NCBI GenBank assembly: GCA_947174505.1
Contig: CAMWJF010000014.1
Coordinates: forward strand, 1 to 64,000
DNA from: an uncultured Lachnospiraceae bacterium
Lineage (GTDB): Bacteria; Bacillota; Clostridia; Lachnospirales; Lachnospiraceae
DNA length: 64,000 nucleotides
Direction of reading: 5' to 3'
Within the stretch, counting starts at the first letter, position 1, and the number at the start of each line of letters is the position of its first letter. The notes beneath the pieces were generated by a model. The model did not search any database and was not told the DNA's origin. It was given only the letters and a program-made list of their open reading frames with translations. Shown one piece after another: positions 679-14,200 of this stretch. The translations under genes were made by a program, and so were the position numbers.

Positions 679-3600
679 ATGGATGATTCTTTGATGGAAT
701 CCCAGCGCAATTCTGAAATTCCAACCGTTAAAGCAACAGAATCCGGGAAACAGAAAAAGAGCCTTCCCGACCATCTCTCAGACTATTCCACCATCATCGG
801 CTTTCTGGAATACCTGAAAAAAATCCCGGAAGAGGCAGTAAAGGTCGATGCCGCCATGACGCAGTTACGCCAGTCCAGCGGCGCGTCCGCGTCTGAGCTG
901 CGCGCTTACTTTGAACAGGCGGCAGACAGCGCACAGAAATACGGTATCTCCATCAGTGACCTGATCGGTATTACCGCTGAGTGGAGCCGGATGGGGTACG
1001 GCCTGCCGGACGCCAGGGCACTGGCGGAGGCCGCCACCTTATACAGCCACATCACCGGCATGGATATCAGTGCATCCAATGAAGCACTTGTTTCCACAGT
1101 ACAGGGACTGCGGCTGGAAACTGGGGAAGTAACGCAGCTCCTTGACATGCTCTCCAAAGCCGGGAATGACCTTTCCCTTGATCCCGCCGGGATCGGTAAG
1201 GCATTACAGGAAAGCGCTGCTTCTTTCCGTGCCGCGAATACGGAACTTTCACAGTCAGTTGCCCTCACGGCGGGGGCAGACAGCATCCTGCAGGACCCCT
1301 CTGCCGTGGCGGATTTGTGGAATGCCGTTGAAGCCCATATTTATGGCACAAGGCGGGAACTGGAAGCGGCAGGAACAGAAACCGGCGGGATGTTAAAATC
1401 CACCGCACAGTTACGGGATCTGGTGCAGGAGCTGGCGGGCTTTGATATCACGGCCGGTTCAGACGGCACACAGCTTAAGGATCTCTACAGCATCATTGTG
1501 GGGATCGGGAATGAATGGCAGAACCTGTCCGCCACTGAACAGGGCGGCTTACTGGATGCCCTTGCGGGGACTCAGGGGGAAGCCCTTGGTTCTGTTCTGG
1601 ATAATGTCTCCGCGATCGAGGGTGCCTACCTGTCAGCAGGAAACGCCTCCGGCTCCGCGCTACAGGCACAGGAGGAATACGAGCAGGGGATCCGATATTC
1701 CCTTGACCGGCTGAAAGCATCCTTCCAGCAGTTTGCAGACACGCTTGCGGGCGACGGCCTGTTAAAAGGGATCGTTGATCTCGGTAACGGCACGGTAAAT
1801 GTGCTGGATTTTGTTACAGACAAACTCGGCGCCTTAGGGACGCTTGGTGCCATCGGCGGCGCCGTCGCCGGTGCAAAAAACTTGGGTTAGCATAAAACAG
1901 ATAACGCAGAATGTGCGGGGCCCAATATATACCCCGTGCCGGGGTGGGAATCCCCGGGCAAAACACAAAGAACTGTATGGAAAATACAGGAGGGTATATT
2001 GGTAAAACCAACTGCGGCCGCTATACCGCAGACCTCCGATATGGCTGTGTGTGGACTACGCAGTCTCCGGATTTCGCGAGAACCGGACAAGGACAAGAAC
2101 AGCTCATGTGACTCGTCATGTAGCATGATGACTTAACTTGCAGAGAGGCGTACTGCCCTTTTGGGTAAGTGCCGCTCCCATCGACTACCAGGAGGGCGCA
2201 GGTATCTTTCTGATACCCGCGAAGGCATAGTCAGACCCCTGCCATTGAGCGTGGCAGTGAAAAAGTTCACCGCAGCTATGCGGCGCGTTAAAAATAGCGG
2301 GCACCTGCGCCCTGCCATATGATGACTTCCAAAAACATGTGTGGCTGAAACAGACATTAGAACATACAGACCCTTAAGAATGTGCCGCAAGAAAGCGGAC
2401 AGCACAGGATGTCCCCTCGTGTCGGACTGCGCCATATGGATTTTCTAAGATATTCCGGTGACAACTGCAAAAGCCGGACGAAACCGTCCTCTATTCGCCA
2501 TCCGGGCTCATTTCGGACTTTCCGTGACATCCATGTCACGGAATTTCTGGGTACCGCACGGAATATCAGAAAATCTCATATGCCTCCGTAGGACGACTCC
2601 GGGAACATCCCGCGCCGTCCGCCATATACGAAATCTAAGGCTTCCATTTATGTCCGCAGTTTGCACAGCGGTTGACGGTACTGCCGGAACCCACAAAGCC
2701 TGTCAGGAGGGAATACCCTCTCTGGCCTGCTGTTATGTTGGTGGAACCGCATCTGGGGCAATGCACTGTACTGCCTGACTGTGGTGCGTTACTCTTCTGC
2801 TGTTGTAACTGGGCTTTGAACTGGGACATTTTTAGATTGTACTCGATGATATCCTTTTCTTTTAGGTCAATCATGGCTTCAATAAAGTTTTTATCAGTTG
2901 ATATATCTTCTATTATTGAAAGTTCATCCCATGAAATGTTTAAAGTTTCTAATTCTCCATTACAGTTATTTGCTATATGTACTAAATCCTCTGATTTACA
3001 ACATCCAATTATTTGTTTACACTTTAAACACTGTTTTACTATTCTATCCATTGTAATCCCCCATCACTATAATATATTTATATCTTATCATATTGATTTT
3101 ATAATTGGAAGTTATAAAATCTATTCAGAAATGTCGCTCGCACAAATCTCTGATAACAAACTGCAATTCAACAGATTATTTAGTGGATTAAAACCTGATA
3201 ATATCAAATACGAAAAAGCGATAGACACATTTAAAACGCTTGATTTATCTAAAATGAAATTTACTAACACAGATGGTACAAAAAATTGGACCGCCATCGC
3301 AGAAGCCATCGGCGACTGCGACGACACCGCCCTCTCCTACTTCAAAACCCTTGACGACGGCAACGGCACGATCAACAATCAGGCTGCTTCCCTCGAGGGC
3401 CTGTCCAAACACCTTGAAAAAGCAGGAAACGGTTTCTCCGCCGCCGCCCTCAAAACAACCCTGCTGAACTCGGCCCTCAATGCCGGTATCTTTCTGGCTG
3501 TCTCTCTGTCCATTCAGGCCATTTCCACCGGCATTGATAACTACATCCACAGGGTGGAGAACGCAAGGGAACGCACTGCTGAACTGTTTGATGAATTCCA

Positions 3601-6600
3601 GCAGCGGAATGACACCCTCTCCAGCCACAAAAAGACCGTATCGGAATCTGCCTCCCGTTATGACCAGCTGTCAAAGGGCGTTGACCTGTCAACCAATGAA
3701 AACCGTTCCCTTTCCACACGGGAGTATGAAGAATTTCTTGCCATCAACAGGCAGCTTGCCGACTCCTTCCCCGAACTGGCAAAAGGGATTGACGAAAACG
3801 GAAACGCCATCCTCTCCCTCGGCACCAAGGGCCTGACCGCCAAAGAGCAGTTGGAAGAACTGTTACAGACGGAGGAAGACTTAAACAACTTTAAGACTGC
3901 GCAGGGGCTGGAAGAATCGTTTACAGGCATCTACACTTACATCGAGGAAGCGGCGCAGGCTTCCGCTAAACTGGAGGGTACAGTCGCTGATTCCGGTGAG
4001 GCCCTTGTTCATTTACAGGAGATTGCGGCAGAAGGCATCAGGCTCGGTAACAGTCCTGACCAGCCTCTTTTCAGCGGAAATACAGACAATGGCGCGGAAC
4101 TGGATTACCTGAACGCGCTTACCTCCTCCGCCAGGGAATTCTGGAAATCCTTGGACGGTTCCAGACGGGTAGAGCTTGCGGGAATGGGAATTGACGACGC
4201 CACCCTTTTTACAACATCCTATGCGGATGACGGTGCCTTTGATCTGTATTCACAGGCATACATGCTCACCGGTGATGAGAAGGCTGCACTGGAAACCATC
4301 ATCAGGGACAACATTTCCAGTGCCAGCGGCGCCCTGTTAGACTCTATAGGAACGCAGACACAGGAGCTGCAGGCAAAGGTCCTGCAGGGTGAAAATGCAT
4401 GGCGGGATTTTATACCGTCACTGGTTTCCGGGATGCAGTCCAGACAGACCTTTCAGGATCTGACACCTGATTTACAGGACGTTGCCATACAGATCGTGGA
4501 GGGGCTTGATTACAGCTGCGCCTCCGCCATGAATGAATGGGATCCCGATCCCTATGCCTATATCCGGGATAAAATTATCGTCCCCATGGGTAATCTTAAC
4601 GCCGTTGACCAGCAGCTTGTAAAAGACAGTTTCCAGAACCTCCTTTCCTTGGACACAAACGCACTCAGCATCAACGAGCTGGATGAAAAAATGAACCTTT
4701 ATATCAATTCCATTACAGGAAAGCTGGATATGACTCCTGTCGAGCTGCAGGCGGTGCTCGGGTTTGATCCTGACGATACGAAGGAAAGGCTGGAACAGTC
4801 CATCCGCACAATCGCAGACAGTCACGGTATAACCGACAGGGACCAGTACGCCAGCTTATCGGAGACCGTCGAATCTTTTACCGTAAAAGAGGCAGAGCTC
4901 TGGCTGGAAGCGACCCGCGGTGCAGAAAATGCCGAACAGGCTGCACGGATGTATGGGGATGCCCTGGAAAAAGCTGGCCGGATAGAAATGGAACCGCCGC
5001 TTAAGGCAGATGCCTTCACGGTGATGGAAGATATGGAAACAAAGCTGAAACCGGCACTGCAGTCCTTAAAATCCGCTTATGGGACGATATTTTCAGACGG
5101 TTTTCATGTAGATTCTGCGGATTTTGGAGCGCTGGAAAGCATCCGCTCCTCCATTGATTCCCTCAGTAAGGCGGAAGGACTGGATTTCCGTTTCGACATG
5201 GAATCCTTTAACCGTTTCGCCTCCATAATGACTGACACGGGTACCACACAGGCACAGGCCGAACAGGCTTTCAACGATCTGGCACTCTCCATTTACCAGG
5301 CAGGCGCAGCCACTGACGGGCTGACACAGGAAACAGCCGGACTTTTTTCCGGGCTGCTGGCATCGCTGGGCGTTGTCAACGCGGATGAACTGGCCATGCG
5401 TACTCTTGCCGAATCGGAGGGCGCAGCCGTCCTCGCATCCCACAGCCTTGCGGACGCCACACAGGCAGATATGTTCAATCTGCTGAATGAGGGACAGGCC
5501 GCCGGTGTGACCCGCGAAATGATTTACCAGTTGGCCGCTTCCGAGATCGCCTATAATACCACCGGTCTGAGTGTGGAAGATAAAATTTCCCAGTTAGGAA
5601 AACTGGCTTCCGCCTATGGCGACACAGCCACCTCCGCCATGGCTGCCGCAGCAGCCGACCGGGCCGCCAGCGGACATGGCGATTACGAAACAGTCCTGTC
5701 TGACATGATGGCCGGTCTCAAAAGGCAGGCAGATTCCTTCAAAATAGAGTTTGATCCCATAAAGCCCGGCAAGACCGGTTCTACAGATTCCGCCAAAGCC
5801 GCCAAAACCGAAACCAACGCCCTCTCCAACCTAAACTCCGAGATGGATAAGCTCCAGTCCTCCTACAAATCCTTATGCGACATCCGGGATACCTACAACC
5901 AGAATGGGAAGATTACGGTAGACCAGTATCAGGAACTGACGAACATGGGCTTTACCTTCCTCTCCCAGCTCGTGGATGAGAACGGACAGTTAGGCTTAAA
6001 CGCCAGCGCCTTCGAGCGTCTCTCACAGGCCAAGCTTCAGGAGATGCAGATCCAGATGGCTAGGAATGCCGCCGACACCATAAATGGTCTGAAAACCGAA
6101 GCGGCGGCGGTGGAATATCTCACCTACGCCAACGAACAGCTGCGGGATGCGGCGCTCGGGGCGGCGGAAGCACAGCTTGCGGCCGCCGTAGACAACGCGA
6201 ATGCGCGGGGCGGCAAGCAGGCCGAGGCCGCACAGCAGATTTATCAGGGCTATCAGGCCGCCAAACAGATGGCAGGAAAGGTGGACTTTTCCTTTACGCC
6301 TGCCTCCTCTTCCGCTTCTTCCCCTGCCGCAAAGGCAGAACCCGCGAAGACGGAAACCTCCTCCAGTCCCATGGACGCCTACAACAAAGAGAAATCCCTC
6401 TTGGAGCACATGCTGGCCATGGACCAGATCTCCAAGGCAGAGTACTATGAAAAGCTGCTTGCTCTGGCGAAAAGCTCCTTTGCGGGCGATGAGGAACATC
6501 AGGACCAGATCTGGGACGCGGAGGAATCTTACCACGATTATCTGGAATCCATCAAGGAGACCTATAACTGGATTGAAGTTTTTCTGGAAAATCTCTCCAG

Positions 6601-9600
6601 GAAAGCCTCCGCCCTGATCGACAAGGCCGGGAAGTTCATTTCCTGGTCCAAGAAAAACGCCATGATCAACCGGGCGGTAAAGGCCACGGACAAACAGATT
6701 TCCGGGCAGAACAACGCCTATGTCTACTATGCGGAAAAAGCAAGGCGGGTAGGCTTAAGCAATACTTACATCGACAGAATCCAGAACGGCACGCTGACCA
6801 TGGAGGATATGCAGAACGAGTCGCTGTCGGATAAGATTGAAAAATATCAGGAATGGTATGATAAGATGACCGCATGTCAGGACGCCGTCTCAGAGCTTTA
6901 CGACCAGGAGCGTGACCTCATCAGGCAGAAGCTGGATAACGTGCTGGCTTACTACAACGATCTTGACTCCTACATGTCCTCCATCGTTTCCAAGATGGAC
7001 AGCTTTATCTCCCTGACGGATGACATGGGCAAGCGCAGTTCCCTCTCCGACCTTCTGGAGCAGTTTGCCGCAGTCAATGAACAGGCCGCCCACTTCCAGT
7101 CCCAGACAACCATTACATCCGACGCGTCGGAAAAGAAACGCTTCGAAAGTTCCGAACGGGTAAAGGCTGCGGAGGAAAAAGAAAAGGAGGAACTGCTCTC
7201 CTCCCTCGACGCCCAAAAGTCGCACGCCGAATCAGGGGTGAAAAATACTGGCACCTATAAAAAGATCGAGCTTGAAATCCAAAAAGCGATAGCCGAAGAA
7301 GCAAAACAGAAAGCGAAATTGGACGCTGTCGAAGAAGAAAACCAGATTAACGATAGCGATTCCGACGCAGTCAGAAAACGAAAGGCAAAGAAAATCGCCC
7401 CCAGAAAAACCGCCTACGAAAAGGCAAAGAAAAAGCGGGAAGATCTGGAAAATAAAAGAAATGCCCTGGAAGCAAACGCCTCAGCCAACACCATCGTGGA
7501 ATATGCAAAGCTGTACGATAAGGAGCAGACTCTTTTAGCCAGACAGGAAACAAAAACGGCGCAGGGAAAAACCTTATCCGAATCCGACGCCAAAAAGCTG
7601 GCGGACACACAGGCCAGAATGGCGGAAATCACCGACGGGAGAAAAACCGCCATCAATGAGCTGGCAGACCAGCTTGCCATTGTAAACGGAAGTAAGCCCG
7701 GCGAGACAGAGGCCGAAAAGCTGAAAAAGCAGCTTGAGACCATCACAGGCAAGGAAGAAGACAAAGACAACAGGGTCGGTTCCGATATCAAACAGTCTGC
7801 CATCTACCAGAAACTTTTAAAGGATATCGCTGATAAAAACGCAGCAATTGAGAAAGAAACACACAAATATGACGGCAAAAAAGCGAGTAAAGCACAGTTA
7901 GCCGCCCAGCAGAAAAATCTGGATAAGATGAACGCACAGTTAGCCGCATACAATGCCAAGAAAGCGGAGCTGGAAGCCCACGCCACCGCCGACACCATCG
8001 GGGAGTACAGCAAGGTTTACGATCAATGGCGCAAACTTCAGGATAAGCTGGACAACGGCAAGGCTCTGACCACCGCAGAGTGGAAACAGTACAATTCCTA
8101 CAGCGGCCAGTTAAAGCAGTTTGCCGACGAGAGGGACGCCACCGTCAAATCTTTAAACGAGCAGCTCGAAAAACTCCAGAACCCCGGCGATAAGGCCGCC
8201 AACATCAATCGCGAATACGAGGAAGCCTCCGAAGAAATCCGGGAAAGCTACAAAGACCAGATCGACTCTATCGACTCAGGCATGAAAGCCTCCAGTCAGT
8301 ACAAAAACCTGCTGGCCAAAAAGCAGCGTCTGGAAAACAAGCGGGACAGCGCGAAAGGCCTGACCGCCTCCGAAGAAAATAACCTGAGAAAATTTACGGC
8401 GGAACTGGAGGCTCTGGAAAAGGGTGCCACCGGGAATAACATCGCAGGCTACATGAAAACATGGGAACAGTGGTACGCCCTCCAGCTAAAGATTGACAAA
8501 GGAACTGCCTTAAACGCAAAAGAGGCTTCCAAATATGATGAGCTGAAAGCCCGGCTCGAAAGCTGGAACACAGAAAAGCAGTCCCAGATCAACGACCTGT
8601 TATCCCTGATGGAGGACGATCTGGAGAAGCTGCAAAAAACCAATGATGAAAATCTGGCCGACGCGGAATCCGAGGTCAACAGCTATTACTCCAAGGTGTA
8701 CGGACTGGCAAAGCAGATTGCCGAATACAACTTAAGCGCCCTGAATGAACAGCTTTCCTGCCTGGATGCCTATATCAGCTACTACAGTGATCTGGTTTCC
8801 CTCTTCGACCACTTCTCCGGCGAAAAACTTACCAATCTCCTGACCGATCTTGACGAAGGCGCCTTTTCCGATCAGGTCAGTGTCTATGAGAAGTATCTGG
8901 ACACGCTGACTTCCAAATATGACGCCACGCTCTCCCAGATCAACGAGTATAAACAGCTTCTGGAAGCCATCGACACCAACGATTTCCAATCCTCCATGGC
9001 TCTGTTCCAGAAATCAATGGAAACCTATCAGGCTTCCGGCAATACGGAAATGGCGGACAGGCTGCAGACAGTTCTCGATTTATTAAACGAACGTGCCGCC
9101 GACGCGGACAACTGGGGCGAATATGCGGACCTGTGGGCCAGCGAATGGGAACAGGCGCTTGCGGATGCCAAATCCGGCCTGATCGAAACTGCCGGTTCCA
9201 TACAGGAGATCAACGACGCCTTACGGGAAGTCAGGTTCTCCGGCATCACGGATGCCATCGAAGAATTAAACCGGGCGGACGGCCTTCTCTCCTCCATGTC
9301 CGGGCTGATTCAGGATGCATGGCTCTATGAGAACGACGGGCTTTCCGAGTACGGAAAGGCCAAAGCCGCCCTTCTGGTGTCCCAGCTGGAAAACGCGCAG
9401 AACAGGGCGGAGGAATATCTGGAGCTCACGAAGCGGATCAGGGAAAGCCAGGACACGTATGCCTCGGATACCGCCTGGCAGGAAGCGCTGACAGAGGCTT
9501 CCCAAAATTACTACGACACGCTCTCCGACGCCGCCTCTTTGGAAAACGCCCTTATGGATCTGATGAAGCAGGCGAAGGAGGAGGAAGTGTCCGGCTGGAA

Positions 9601-10297
9601 GGACATCATTTCCGCCAGAAAGGAAGCCTTACAGGCTAAGAAATCCTACTACGACTACGACAGGAGCCTGAAGGAGAAAAACAAAAATATCGACTCCCTG
9701 AAGGCTGAGCTTGCCGCCCTAAACGATATCAGCACCGCGCAGGCGAAGGCCAGAAGGGCTAAGCTGGAAGCACAGCTTGCGCAGGCCGAAGAAGAACTGG
9801 AAACCACCAGAACGGAGCATACATTTTCCATCAGCACGGAGGCTCTGGACGGTTACGCGAAAACGCTGGAGGAGTCCCTGCAGGAATCCACGGAAACCGT
9901 GCAGGAATCCCTCGAGTCCCAAAAGAAGATCATAGAGGAAGCAAAGGAGCTGTACCGCACCTCCACGGACGCGGTGGAGGAGACCATGCAGAAGGTCACG
10001 GACTTTTACCGCCTTGCAGGGGCGCAGATGGATACCTTCCTCGCCGCTCTGCCGGAGCCGGAGGCTGCCCTAAATCTCAATCCTCTCCCCGATCCTGCCG
10101 CAACGCTGGCGGGATTGCCAACGTCTGACCGGGAGTCTGTGGAAATCGTAAACCACTACGATGCGCTTCTGCGCGTAGACGGCAATGTGGACAAAAACAC
10201 ACTCCCCAGACTGCAGGAAATTCTGGAAAAGTCCTATCAGTACACCACACAGAAGCAGTACACCGACCTGAAAAAGATCGGCTATTCCTTACATTGA
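679..10297 (+). CDS. Phage tail tape measure protein, split by a group I intron (exons 679-1887 and 3137-10297)
   Basis: The spliced product is 2,789 residues. Exon 1 (403 codons) carries the conserved N-terminal domain of TP901-type tape measures (repeated Ala-rich helices, then a Gly/Ala-rich segment ending AGAKNLG). Exon 2 (2,386 codons) continues LAQISDNKLQFNRLFSGL, then a hydrophobic segment (NAGIFLAVSLSIQAIS) and very long coiled coils. Start chosen at ATG 679 because AAGGAGG at 664-670 precedes it; the in-frame TTG at 658 lies upstream of that site. Without splicing the frame stops at once at TAG 1888. The long open frame upstream of 3137 (from 2672) is intron sequence read on the wrong strand, not protein. 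The product scaffolds the tail tube and sets its length; at the usual rule of about 0.15 nm per residue this predicts a tail near 0.4 micrometre. Dit and Tal follow directly, the normal siphovirus order. Confidence 0.85.
2434..2582 (+). repeat. Large nested inverted repeat in the 3' half of the intron
   Basis: The outer arms (2434-2458 and 2559-2582) are near-perfect complements of 24-25 nt, starting CATATG and ending CGGAATATC. Inside is a perfect 11-bp hairpin (TTCCGTGACAT / ATGTCACGGAA, about 2518-2541). The structure lies between the intron core and the antisense gene. It may be a peripheral P9-type extension or the remains of an inserted element. Confidence 0.6.
2635..3051 (-). CDS. Zinc-ribbon protein encoded antisense within the intron
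   Basis: A 138-residue protein. The N-terminus has a Cys cluster (QCLKCKQIIGCC). The C-terminus is a typical zinc ribbon, CPRCGS...RCANCGHKWKP, with two CxxC knuckles about 25 residues apart around a Gly-rich loop. The start ATG at 3051 follows GGGGGA, and AT-rich promoter-like sequence (TATAAAT, TATTATA) lies just upstream. Short proteins with this ribbon are frequent in Firmicutes phages, but I know no defined function. It is not a homing endonuclease: there is no LAGLIDADG, GIY-YIG or HNH motif. It lies wholly inside the intron and opposite to its transcription, so it is probably expressed independently, or is a cargo or remnant gene. Confidence 0.7.
   Translation of the reverse strand: MDRIVKQCLKCKQIIGCCKSEDLVHIANNCNGELETLNISWDELSIIEDISTDKNFIEAMIDLKEKDIIEYNLKMSQFKAQLQQQKSNAPQSGSTVHCPRCGSTNITAGQRGYSLLTGFVGSGSTVNRCANCGHKWKP
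7231..8640 (+). repeat. Three diverged tandem repeats within the tape measure coiled coil
   Basis: Three protein-level repeats begin near 7240 (TGTYKKIELEIQ), 7790 (SAIYQKLLKDIA) and 8280 (SSQYKNLLAKKQ). Each continues to an ALEANASANTIVEYAKLYD-type block (variants ELEAHATADTIGEYSKVYD and ALEKGATGNNIAGYMKTWE) and then a G(K/T)xL(S/T/N) turn and another helix. Units are about 130-180 residues. This points to tape measure lengthening by internal duplication. Confidence 0.7.
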
Positions 10298-10367
10298 CAA
10301 AATCAAACGGAGGGCGGCGGCATAGCTTTTACCGCCCCGCCTTCCCCGGAAAGGAGGCAACAAATAC

Positions 10368-11237
10368 ATGTCATTTTTAGATGCAGATTCTTTTACGTTT
10401 GACGGCCAAAACAGCGATTCCTACAACCTGATGATGTGCTGGATCGACGAAACCGCAAACGTTTCCGCAAACGGGCTGCGAAGATCCGTCAACAGCGGCG
10501 AAACAAACCACGTCCGCCTGAAAACCAACAATTACGGCGTGAGCTTTGAGGGAAATATCGAGTTTTCCTTCTATGTCATCAAAAAGGACGAAACGCCCTT
10601 TACCAGACAGGAATCCATGGCTGTCAACCGCTGGCTTACTGGCTCCACTGTGCCGCGGGCGCTATATTTTAACGATAACGCGGTTCCGTCACTCCACTAC
10701 TACGCTGTGTGCACGGAAATTGAGGACAAAGTGATTCTGGAGCATCAGGCCAAGAAGCTGGTTTTCAAAACCAACTCTCCCTTCGGCTTTACCGATCCTG
10801 TCGAAAAAAGATTTCTCGTTGCAGGCGGGGAGGTTTTCTCCATAGACAACCTTGCCGATACGGTAAGCGGCGTCTTTTACCCCCGGATTCTTTTAGCCGC
10901 CCGCGGTACGGATGCCGTTGTCATCGAAAATATGAGCGACCGCAAGTCAGTCACCTTCCGTCTTGGCTTAATCCCGCCGGACACCTCCGGGAACCGAAGT
11001 ATTCTTGTGGACAGCGCACAGATGAAGCTGCTTGACCTAAACGACGGCAGCCGTCTCATACCCTTTCACGAAGTCGGCTGGACGACACAGTATTCCAGCT
11101 ATGTCTCATCCAACGACACGTACATGGAAACCATTTACTGGCTCCGATTAATACGGGGAACAAACACCATCAGGATAACAGGCGACTGCGAAGTTACCTT
11201 TATCTTTGAATTTCCCAGAAAGGCAGGATGCTTATGA
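10368..11237 (+). CDS. Distal tail protein (Dit-like)
   Basis: A 289-residue protein between the tape measure and the Tal-type gene, the invariant position of Dit in siphoviruses. It opens MSFLDADSFTFDGQNSDSYNL, the usual N-terminal beta-strand of the SPP1 gp19.1/TP901 Dit hub domain. A second beta-rich domain from about residue 140 (SPFGFTDPVEKRF...) matches the outer galectin-like part. In the virion, Dit hexamers link the tail tube to the Tal protein and carry peripheral receptor-binding proteins. AAAGGAGG precedes ATG 10368. The stop overlaps the next start as ATGA, so the two are probably translationally coupled. Confidence 0.8.
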   Translation: MSFLDADSFTFDGQNSDSYNLMMCWIDETANVSANGLRRSVNSGETNHVRLKTNNYGVSFEGNIEFSFYVIKKDETPFTRQESMAVNRWLTGSTVPRALYFNDNAVPSLHYYAVCTEIEDKVILEHQAKKLVFKTNSPFGFTDPVEKRFLVAGGEVFSIDNLADTVSGVFYPRILLAARGTDAVVIENMSDRKSVTFRLGLIPPDTSGNRSILVDSAQMKLLDLNDGSRLIPFHEVGWTTQYSSYVSSNDTYMETIYWLRLIRGTNTIRITGDCEVTFIFEFPRKAGCL

Positions 11238-14200
11238 TTTATCTGGCAAAACCGACAGGCGATATCCTCGGCAGACCGGGCGGTCTGAAGGAGGAGACGT
11301 GCAAATTAAAGAAAACTTTGACCGACATGTGGGAGCTGTCCTTTGAGGTCAACAAATATGTGGACGAGAACGATGGTTTTCGTCCCTCAGATTTTTATGA
11401 TTCCCTCTCCGAAAACATGTACCTCCTGCTGGAGAGCGGCGCGGACAGTGTGCTTTTCCTGATCGATGCAAAGCCCGTCGTCACAACCGACGGCACGCAG
11501 GAAACAAAAAGTATTACGGCGCACACCGCGGAATGCGAGCTGCAGCAAAAATTCCTCCGCAGCTTTTATATCAATAACGGCACACCGGAGAGTCAGGAAT
11601 ATCTGGCTGACGACAATCTGGATCCCTATACCCGTCTTCCGAAAGAATATATCAGTCTGGTGAATTTTGACTGTCCCGGCCTGTCCTTACTGCATCTGGC
11701 ATTAGAGGAAACCGGCTGGACGGTTGACGAAAATCTCCGGACCGCCGAGGCCGGAGCCTGCGCCGGAAAATACCAGTTCAGCGTGGACGGGAAGGATATC
11801 TATTCCTTTCTCATGAGCGAGGTTGCGCCCACGGCAAACGTGCTCTTTTTCTTTGACCGCCGGAGGCGCATCATAAGCCTCCGCTCCTATCCCAATATCG
11901 GGAAGGACACCGGGATCTGCATCGGCCTGCGGAATCTGGCAAGCCGGATACAAGTGGAATCCACCACGGACATGGCGCTGATCACCAGATACCGCCCGGC
12001 CTGTGAAGACGGTTTCGGCATCGAATATGTCAATTTCGGCGATCCCTTTCTTTACAGCCTTGACTACTTCGCAGACACCCACAATGAATACGGCGATTAT
12101 AAGTATGTCACCGAAAATTTCCACAACGAATATGCCGACTGGCAAAAGAAACGGGACGCCAACCGGCCGCAGTACATTGCCCTGACAAGGGAATACAACA
12201 AAACCCTGCTGGCTGTCAGCGAGCTACAGAACCGCCTGCCCAACGACGGCTGCAGCATTGATTACAAAACCTACAAGGCGGACGAGCTTGCCCTCTCATT
12301 ACAGGCTTACGAAAATGCACTGGCCGCATTAATCACCCTGTACAAAAACGACTATCCTGATCTCTATTCCAATCCCGGCGCAGAGCTGGACGAGACGCAT
12401 CTACACACCACCATGTACTGGCACGACTACTTTGCCTACAAATACCAGATCATTCCCTCCGTTCTGGAGGCCATGAAAATCTGGTACGAGACAGATACCA
12501 AAGGGAATCTTGTGAGAGACAAAGACGGCCACTATATTCTGTGTGAAAACGGAAACCCGGTGTATGCAGGAAATAACGCCATTGTAAAGCCTGTAAACGC
12601 CTTCCTGTACGAATTTGACCTGTATGGTCTGGAGGAGCTGAAAGCAAAGAAAAAAGCATGGATGGAATGTGTCAGTCTCTTATACCGGGACGGCTTCATT
12701 GCCTCCGGCACGAAGGAGGCTCCGAACGCATACCTGACTCCCGACGAAACCGGGTGGGAAACGCTGACCGACAGCCAGAAAGCGCAGTTTACCACCATGA
12801 CCGCTTTCACGAACACGCTTAACAGCTATCTCGACTACATGTCCTTTGACCCCCGCGACAATGCCATAACGGGCACAGCCTGCAAGGGTATTATACGGCT
12901 GTGCGAAGATGCCATTTCCGAACGGCAGAAAGAGATCGATATGCTGCAGGAACGCCTCGCTTCCATCGGCGCTGAGAGAGACACTCTCTCCTCCTTCGTC
13001 CGCCCGGAAAATCATTTCGGCTCGGAGAACCTGAAAATCTTCCGTCTGCTCACCCACGAGGCGGACTACAGCAACAAAAATATCGTAACCACAAATCTGG
13101 ACGATATCCTGACTGTGATCGACGTGGCCGAAGAACTCTATCAGGACGCAAAAACCCGTCTGGATACCGTATCCCGGCCACAGTACGCATTCCGCACCAC
13201 CATTGACAATCTGTTCGCACTGGAGGAATTTGCACCGATGCGCGAGGACTTTTCCATCGGGAATTTTATCTACCTGATGCCCGACCTGTTCCGTGACGAC
13301 TCTGTGAAACTGCGGCTCATATCCATTGAGTCAAACCCGCTTATCGACACAGGAGATATCTCCGTGGAGTTCTCTACCATGACAAGATCCCTGTCCGGCG
13401 TCAACGATCTGGCGTTTCTCTTCGGGGACGGCGCATCCGTCTCCTCGCACGCTTCCGGGTCAGCTTCCGGCAGCGGTGGCGCCTACGGCAAAAACGATGC
13501 AGAAATCCAGATCGCCAACAATATGTTAAACGCCCTGTTAAAATCTGAAACCTTTGGCACACAGGTGTCCGACGTAATACTGGACAGCATCAAGGGCAAT
13601 AAGGGGAATTTCGGAAAGCTGCTGGCGCACAGCGGGATTTTCGACAGTCTGGAAAGCGGCGGGATCAAGATTAACGGCGACTGCCTTTTTGACAAAATCA
13701 AATCAGTCAACTGGAATGGAACAGAAAGTGACTTATTATGTAATAGTATCGGCAGTATCATTGATTTATCTAACGGTCATTTTAATCTCGGCGGGAAATT
13801 GAAATGGAACGGCAATCAATTAAACGTGGAGGGTAGTGGTAAATTTACTGGTGACATTATAGCAAACTCAATTATATTAAACAAAGACTCTATTGTTGCA
13901 GGTTTAACCGCCAATAAACTGGTTGACGCCTCTGGCTTTGTTATTCAGGATGTCGCAATCGGTGAACAAAATACCATTAGCCACAGCAATAATTATTTCT
14001 GTCTTTCATCTAACGGATTACTGGAAGCAGATAATGCAGTGATATATGGAAAAATATATGCAACAGATGGCCGGTTTACCGGTGATATTACAGCAACCAA
14101 CCTGTCCGCTAATGAATCTGGCTCAATCGGAGGATGGGATTTCAACAAAGAAGCATTCTATAAAGGAAGTAATGTCTTCGAATCACAAAATGGCATCTAT

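Follow-up and report, generated by a model that had tools for sequence, protein, structure and literature searches.

Results

An interrupted tape measure gene

The DNA examined here (the window) comprises the first 64,000 nucleotides (64 kb) of contig 14 (CAMWJF010000014.1) in the 151-contig assembly GCA_947174505.1 of an uncultured Lachnospiraceae bacterium. Near its start lies a gene for the tape measure protein (TMP) of a tailed phage. The gene is interrupted after codon 403 by a stretch that is very probably a self-splicing group I intron (1888–3136, + strand; 1,249 nt) and that holds, on the opposite strand, a gene for a small zinc-ribbon protein and a structured RNA. The TMP frame opens with the ATG at 679, preceded by its own Shine-Dalgarno sequence (AAAGGAGGAACTATCT), and meets a TAG stop at 1888–1890; another long frame spans 2672–10297. 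Removal of 1888–3136 joins a 5' exon of 403 codons (679–1887, +) in frame to a 3' exon with the remaining 2,386 codons plus the stop (3137–10297, +; supported by its open frame and by relatives). The result is 2,789 codons free of stops, as had been proposed in an initial reading of the letters without database searches (the sequence-only reading). That reading also held that standard annotation would report two broken TMP genes, which agrees with the frames, and that the second would begin with 465 incorrect residues; the false leader (2672–3136) is in fact 465 bases, or 155 codons, long. By family match, the N-terminal part belongs to the phage tape measure proteins (PF10145, E = 1.6e-12; TIGR01760, E = 9.8e-15; PHROG 4211, tail length tape measure, E = 2.2e-39). 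A DNA-level search among phages gave no match, and a search with the TMP N part gave no confirmed match to a viral contig.

Splice sites and guide pairing

At the predicted 5' splice site, the exon bases TTGGGT (1882–1887, +) pair with GCCCAA (1920–1925, +) to form helix P1, which is 100% paired in the relatives described below, with changes on both sides in two of its six pairs. The pair at the splice site is a U·G wobble, retained in all seven aligned sequences with letters there (7/7). Directly 5' of the P1 3' strand, which is supported by both the splice geometry and the core count, lies a P10 guide, TGTGCGGG (1912–1919, +), that pairs over 8 bp, one of them G-U, with the first bases of the 3' exon, CTCGCACA (3137–3144, +). 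The first intron codon is TAG and the last intron base (3136) is G. Both pairings, the U-G at the junction, the leading TAG and the terminal G had been read from the letters alone, and all of them were recovered.

These elements were scored together by a script with a fixed geometry (U·G at the 5' site, P10 abutting P1, a G before the 3' exon and the frame kept). The window scored 34, compared with a median of 21 and a maximum of 28 in 15 shuffles. Since the script demands the terminal G, the independent evidence is the in-frame P10 pairing that follows it. By itself, the 8-bp P10 of the window is unremarkable (19.5, equal to the 95% point of 200 shuffles), and we rejected it as stand-alone evidence; the claim is carried by the whole geometry together with the relatives and the core.

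Among the 39 interrupted loci of a first set (loci are given L numbers), 21 could be modelled, and 15 of the 21 score above all of 15 shuffles. Another 10 loci, fetched with the zinc-ribbon protein alone, were modelled. Seven of the 10 have the same geometry, six of them scoring above all 40 shuffles and the seventh (L118) between the 95% point and the maximum of the shuffles; those that pass are mostly of the window's own intron family and are thus not fully independent.

Intron core and class

The core was assessed in an alignment of eight related introns (the window, L021, L022, L023, L103, L113, L105 and part of L025), in which the structure was drawn on the window's row and the pairs were then counted across the alignment. 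Standard pairs occupy 95.9% of 588 cells, compared with 33.9–45.5% when the 3' strands were slid by 1–3 columns and a mean of 90.2% when letters were shuffled among sequences (0 of 500 shuffles as high as observed). Changes on both sides were found in 30 of 81 pairs (shuffled mean 7.5; 0/500 as high); four of the eight introns are mutually close, so these changes rest mainly on L103, L113 and L105.

The defining trait of group I introns is the pseudoknot formed by P3 and P7. In the window, P3 would consist of CCTCC (2033–2037, +) and GGAGG (2191–2195, +), and P7 of GACTA (2183–2187, +) and TAGTC (2228–2232, +). Both helices are 100% paired in every sequence with letters there (n = 7 and n = 8, respectively), and they show changes on both sides in four of five and two of five pairs, contributed by one sequence each. 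P6 with P6a (2143–2177, +) is likewise 100% paired (both-side changes in 4/13 pairs), and the P8 hairpin (2201–2217, +) and P9 hairpin (2239–2257, +) are 93.2 and 93.3% paired, with both-side changes in 4/6 and 2/6 pairs. The P7/P8/P9 core marked by GAAGGCATAGTC in the sequence-only reading is therefore borne out: the motif (2221–2232) ends in the P7 3' strand and the helices are paired across relatives.

Overall, the compensatory changes in P3 and P7, the P1/P10/terminal-G geometry in relatives and the existence of uninterrupted TMP homologues support the earlier assignment of 1888–3136 as a probable group I intron. A covariance model (R1) built on the stretch from P6 to P9 was run on 397 genomes of the family and found seven places in five of them. 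TMP introns were matched in the window, in genome G424, twice in G455 and once in G384; the match G424:C93:284 is a remnant fused to a TMP-like coding sequence at a contig start, and the one in G446 is weak (24 bits).

Other kinds of element were considered for the stretch and set aside. For a group II intron, neither a GUGYG start nor a domain V was seen by eye. IStrons combine a group I intron with an IS605 element and thus carry cargo within the intron, as here. No transposase gene was found in the window intron: Pfam identified none for the zinc-ribbon open reading frame (ORF), which gave a single zinc-domain match below the cut-off, or for nine other short intron ORFs. A homing-endonuclease intron was rejected as well, with no endonuclease identified for the zinc-ribbon ORF (Pfam, NCBIfam, PHROGs and fold searches) or for the nine other short ORFs (Pfam).

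As separate observations, the introns of L049, L047 and (by eye) L103 at 3150 are of another class with a G|CAACTG-type junction; the group I core described above is that of the window class. In L025 and in L113 (1–420), TMP exon remnants are fused directly to the inner intron core, as if recombination had deleted cassettes.

Recurrence of the interruption

A profile of the end of the N part (A2) matched 57 places in 40 of the 397 family genomes at E ≤ 1e-5. Of these places 45 were fetched; the 12 left out are mostly weak matches with long open frames, and for this reason the interrupted share is not a rate. When the earlier loci and three phage records are added, the matches extending far enough in the profile number 52, of which 39 end within 100 codons and 13 run on. 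In at least one of the 39 (L088) the end coincides with that of a contig, and counts were consequently restricted to matches with at least 2.5 kb downstream, giving 30 interrupted and 12 uninterrupted genes. Alignment with an uninterrupted homologue had been suggested as a check on the intron; 12 of the 42 TMPs, including a 2,968-residue ORF in L044, are such homologues, and their existence supports the intron reading. Within 5 kb, 22 of the 30 interrupted genes, which include close relatives and are not independent, have an antisense ORF encoding a C-terminal zinc ribbon, versus one of the 12 uninterrupted genes; by coordinates this single case is part of the neighbouring cassette in L103. 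On the sense strand, the pattern was found in 1/30 and 0/12, and elsewhere in the window on 0 of 18 strands. By eye, the break follows KNx and then G, A or D in 23 of the 39 interrupted matches; of the 13 uninterrupted matches, L111 has KNVG at this place as well. Judged from these comparisons, the site is a hotspot for interruption.

The antisense zinc-ribbon gene

The gene within the intron (2635–3051, − strand) encodes a 138-residue protein with cysteine pairs at both ends and has a Shine-Dalgarno-like GGGGGATTAC before its ATG. Downstream on the same strand is a TwoAYGGAY RNA (RF01731; 2424–2591, −), matched with 97.3 bits against a gathering score of 43. The sequence-only reading had missed the antisense gene and the RNA, the repeated layout in other phages, the classes of guide and exon, and the co-variation of zinc-ribbon protein and exon described below.

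The ratio of nonsynonymous to synonymous substitution rates is 0.33, 0.09, 0.09 and 0.09 in four pairs of relatives, and silent sites are too saturated for a ratio in two further pairs; by this measure the gene is under purifying selection. Searches with the zinc-ribbon family alone returned 18 genome loci and 8 viral loci, several being the same place refetched or duplicated. Of the 18 genome loci, 14 come from records titled with Lachnospiraceae or a genus of this family. In 21 of the 26 loci, the start of the zinc-ribbon gene has beside it, on the opposite strand, an open frame whose own start is of the LAQ, VAQ, FAQ, LAH or VVNY type (by eye).

The AlphaFold model of the protein, with a mean predicted local distance difference test score of 74.8, has short strands and three helices and is of low confidence before and within the last ribbon. 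In fold searches at E ≤ 0.001, the PDB gave no match and the viral library gave one ("RNA polymerase I-like protein", 14% identity); another viral entry, a 36-residue zinc-ribbon transposase, matches weakly and in part. No named nuclease was among the best 50 matches of each fold search, in which the model is weak and many matches are unnamed. Pfam, NCBIfam and PHROGs likewise identified no nuclease family, the partial Pfam match to Zn_ribbon_InsA (14.6 bits) falling under its cut-off of 26.1. The window protein has no match among annotated phages at E ≤ 1e-3. Its relative in L045 matches four annotated phage records over the C-terminal half or less; one of them, in Streptococcus phage O1205, is a distant relative (C-terminal half only, 36.5% identity) encoded between integrase and repressor. 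PADLOC returned no match for the window protein and weak ones only for the relative in L133 (15 and 11.6 bits). Four terminator-like sites on the minus strand downstream of the gene overlap intron helices.

Co-variation and cassettes

We compared similarities among 18 loci by Mantel tests, leaving out L104 (a near copy of L103 at 12871), L023 (no usable exon), L027 (zinc-ribbon ORF under the length limit) and L113 at 2535 (given the pair of its neighbour). Similarity of the N part of the zinc-ribbon protein tracks that of the first part of the downstream TMP exon (r = 0.535, p = 0.0002), more strongly at exon residues 75–150 (r = 0.483) than at residues 15–75 (r = 0.254). There is no clear relation of the C-terminal ribbon with the TMP exon (r = 0.124, p = 0.08). 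The upstream TMP N part shows weak relations only, with the N part of the zinc-ribbon protein (r = 0.233, p = 0.02), with the downstream exon (r = 0.127, p = 0.09) and with exon residues 15–75 (r = 0.159, p = 0.03). This pattern fits an exchange unit composed of the intron, the N part of the zinc-ribbon gene and the exon.

Repeated sets occur in some loci. L021 has two N parts, and the intron and TMP exon that follow, with a zinc-ribbon gene in each case, differ between the two. Genome G455 has, within 35 kb, two very similar sets (one with a shortened zinc-ribbon ORF), a third set belonging to a different class and an N part without interruption; since G455 is a single contig, this layout does not stem from faulty assembly. 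Two or three antisense zinc-ribbon ORFs stand in a row within one intron in L092, L050, L084, L105 and L048, with identical protein sequences in L050.

The guides of 20 introns pair with their own 3' exons over a mean of 9.9 bases (range 4–21), compared with 3.5 for other exons; the latter include same-class exons, and these cross-match, as they do in the window family. The extremes are L049 and L047, in which the guides pair over 21 and 18 bases (the latter with one mismatch) with their own exons and over 9 and 8 bases (one mismatch) with each other's, and L048 and L050, with only 4 bases. The positions of guides and exons come from the models or were set by hand, and the matrix thus shows specificity rather than discovery. 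On this sequence comparison, guide pairing falls in exon-specific classes.

Discussion

A probable intron in the tape measure gene

The best explanation of the locus is, with high confidence, that codon 403 of a tailed-phage TMP gene is followed by a self-splicing group I intron, which holds an antisense zinc-ribbon gene. On late transcription, the intron would fold through its P1–P10 guide and its P3/P7 core, the RNA would be cut after TTGGGT, and this end would be joined to CTCGCACA, yielding the 2,789-residue TMP. RNA left unspliced would give a 403-residue fragment and, since the intron opens with a TAG codon, tail assembly would be gated by splicing. The zinc-ribbon gene, which has its own ribosome-binding site and is followed by the structured RNA, would probably be read at another time, from the other strand. 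Splicing itself we infer from structure.

Several observations count against this explanation. The Rfam group I model (RF00028, Intron_gpI), which had been suggested as a check, gave no match on 1800–3250 even at E ≤ 10, and none in L021 (4690–5400) or in four relatives with a similar layout; the class assignment therefore rests on structure and comparison. As these agree, we take the miss to reflect the insensitivity of one model, which passed its cut-off in 2 of 14 control genomes. The compensatory changes of P3 and P7 come from a single sequence per pair, P6 is supported by pairing while P4/P5 have no confident assignment, and further pair types in the core (43, versus a shuffled mean of 39.4) were reached in 16 of 500 shuffles. 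Of the interrupted loci outside the splice models, 17 have no zinc-ribbon ORF by the pattern used and one has no downstream frame. No convincing splice model was obtained for six of the 21 modelled loci (L023, L051, L084, L085, L098 and L113 at 2535); in L023 the model misplaces the downstream exon, and a transposase-like ORF is seen there by eye. L022, L048 and L050 exceed their shuffles by a single point, the passing models of L092 and L103 at 3150 look wrong beside L049, and the scripted junction of L021 at 8424 is one base off that of the window. Three of the 10 loci fetched with the zinc-ribbon protein (L127, L131 and L138) fail the splice model. Eight of the 30 interrupted genes have no antisense zinc-ribbon ORF by the pattern used (L029, L047, L091, L095, L099, L102, L108 and L110), a degenerate copy being visible by eye in L047. 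Finally, a promoter scan of the minus strand found no sigma-70-like site, and the zinc-ribbon gene and the exon are neighbours, such that linkage alone could produce part of their co-variation.

Proposed function of the antisense gene

The comparisons suggest that the intron, the zinc-ribbon gene and the downstream exon are exchanged together as a unit. The zinc-ribbon protein may act on, or protect against, the adjacent TMP variant; the gene would be cognate to that variant, perhaps as an immunity gene. We tentatively prefer, at clearly less than an even chance, an extension of the intron explanation in which the lysogen makes the protein as an immunity (superinfection-exclusion) factor specific to the TMP, and the protein blocks DNA entry by phages with the same TMP variant. 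With the adjacent TMP exon its N part co-varies more than it does with the upstream one, and more than the ribbon does; two or three copies can stand beside one exon (L050, L084, L092, L105 and L048), as in immunity arrays; and the relative of the L045 protein in O1205 lies between integrase and repressor. TMPs are, moreover, targets of defence, as the available text on SNIPE describes (PMC13190303). Set against this, the similarity to the O1205 relative (36.5% identity) is confined to the C-terminal half, PADLOC has nothing for the window protein and only the weak L133 matches, the promoter scan found no site on the minus strand, and linkage could explain the co-variation.

A broader proposal, somewhat more doubtful than the immunity function taken singly, is that TMP genes of Lachnospiraceae phages are built from exchangeable cassettes of group I intron, antisense zinc-ribbon gene and TMP exon. 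The intron would house an immunity gene specific to the TMP, which is spliced away for virions, and the long guide (up to 21 bp) would work like a barcode, matching every intron with the exon that belongs to it where cassettes stand in rows.

The main rival to the immunity function, which we consider unlikely, is that the antisense protein is a homing endonuclease or intron-mobility factor and co-varies with the exon by recognising target DNA in it. Phage introns often carry such genes, the capsid intron of mycobacteriophage LittleE having an antisense LAGLIDADG-like frame according to the text available (PMC3706429). A zinc ribbon could bind DNA, and the weak partial matches to transposase zinc domains (Zn_ribbon_InsA at 14.6 bits and the 36-residue viral fold entry) point in the same direction. 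This rival is disfavoured by the lack of a nuclease in Pfam, NCBIfam and PHROGs and of a named one among the best 50 matches of each fold search, by tandem zinc-ribbon copies, which it would not lead one to expect, and by co-variation that is stronger at exon residues 75–150 than at 15–75.

It is improbable that the locus belongs to a graveyard of decaying prophages, with TMP cassettes duplicated by recombination and no present function. The tandem N/Mid cassettes of L021, the L023 copy, which by eye is followed by a transposase-like ORF, the remnants fused into intron cores in L025 and L113 and the position of the window at a contig end would all suit such decay; however, the window's exons are open over 2,789 codons, the zinc-ribbon gene is under purifying selection and the core retains compensatory changes. 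Least probable is that two separate proteins flank an ordinary intergenic cassette without any intron, the second starting at ATG 3131: this would accommodate the position of that ATG two codons ahead of the predicted 3' exon, but no Shine-Dalgarno sequence was seen before it, and the conserved P3/P7 pseudoknot, the guide pairing and the uninterrupted TMP homologues speak against it.

Relation to known systems

Exclusion proteins aimed at the TMP have reportedly been described before, Ltp being said to act on the TMP and HK97 gp15 to provide TMP-directed exclusion. SNIPE acts through the TMP of the incoming phage, as proposed here for the zinc-ribbon gene (PMC13190303). In the text available, neither SNIPE (PMC13190303) nor Ltp (PMC3952083) is described as an antisense gene within a TMP intron. 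In Vibrio phage ICP1, a spliced TMP intron has been published and the TMP gene is called a frequently interrupted gene; in the portions of that paper available, the cargo consists of HNH homing endonucleases, whereas the intron described here carries an antisense zinc-ribbon gene whose variation goes with that of the downstream exon (PMC10448857). The introns in the capsid gene of LittleE and in a minor tail gene of mycobacteriophage BAKA are described as most likely group I, the exon ending in U and the intron in G (PMC3706429). They resemble the present case in lying in virion genes and, for LittleE, in carrying a bottom-strand ORF. That ORF resembles a LAGLIDADG endonuclease, and the available text describes no exon-linked passenger or recurrent site, unlike what is seen here (PMC3706429).

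Thus, a spliced TMP intron (ICP1) and a bottom-strand ORF in a phage intron (LittleE) are already known, and the new element is an antisense zinc-ribbon gene tied to the exon that it precedes. No report of a TMP intron with such a gene was found among the titles and abstracts listed in the open-access PubMed Central literature. With simple ORF calling, a TMP gene of this kind comes out as two genes, and neither the intron nor the gene it carries is visible. Should the zinc-ribbon gene prove cognate to the adjacent exon, introns would take on a role not commonly assigned to them, as hosts of a gene that has to be silent or removed by splicing when the host gene is used; the family would also offer a varied set of candidate exclusion proteins open to direct tests against TMP variants.

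Other features of the loci

In L045 (G206:C13), a second interruption of the same TMP lies at 9388–12268, after approximately residue 160 of the N part. It contains a 397-residue ORF (10356–11549) that by eye resembles an HNH-type endonuclease.

Ahead of the TMP gene, the window has a small nucleotidyltransferase-like ORF (146–433, +; MNT type, by eye) with a relative in L024, and L022 has a HEPN-like ORF in a similar position. These ORFs may represent toxin-antitoxin-like genes between cassettes. The first ~55 bases of the contig (window 1–60) recur at seven other places in the assembly with 88–100% identity, two of them at a contig's first base, and look like a repeat or the end of an insertion sequence at which contigs broke.

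The TwoAYGGAY RNA (window 2402–2608; L012–L019) belongs to a dispersed repeat family of the host genus. A search with the whole query hit 38 of 77 genomes, with ~5 candidates scored per genome; most matches cover the TwoAYGGAY stretch only, at ~70–86% identity, and seven of the copies that we looked at adjoin unrelated genes.
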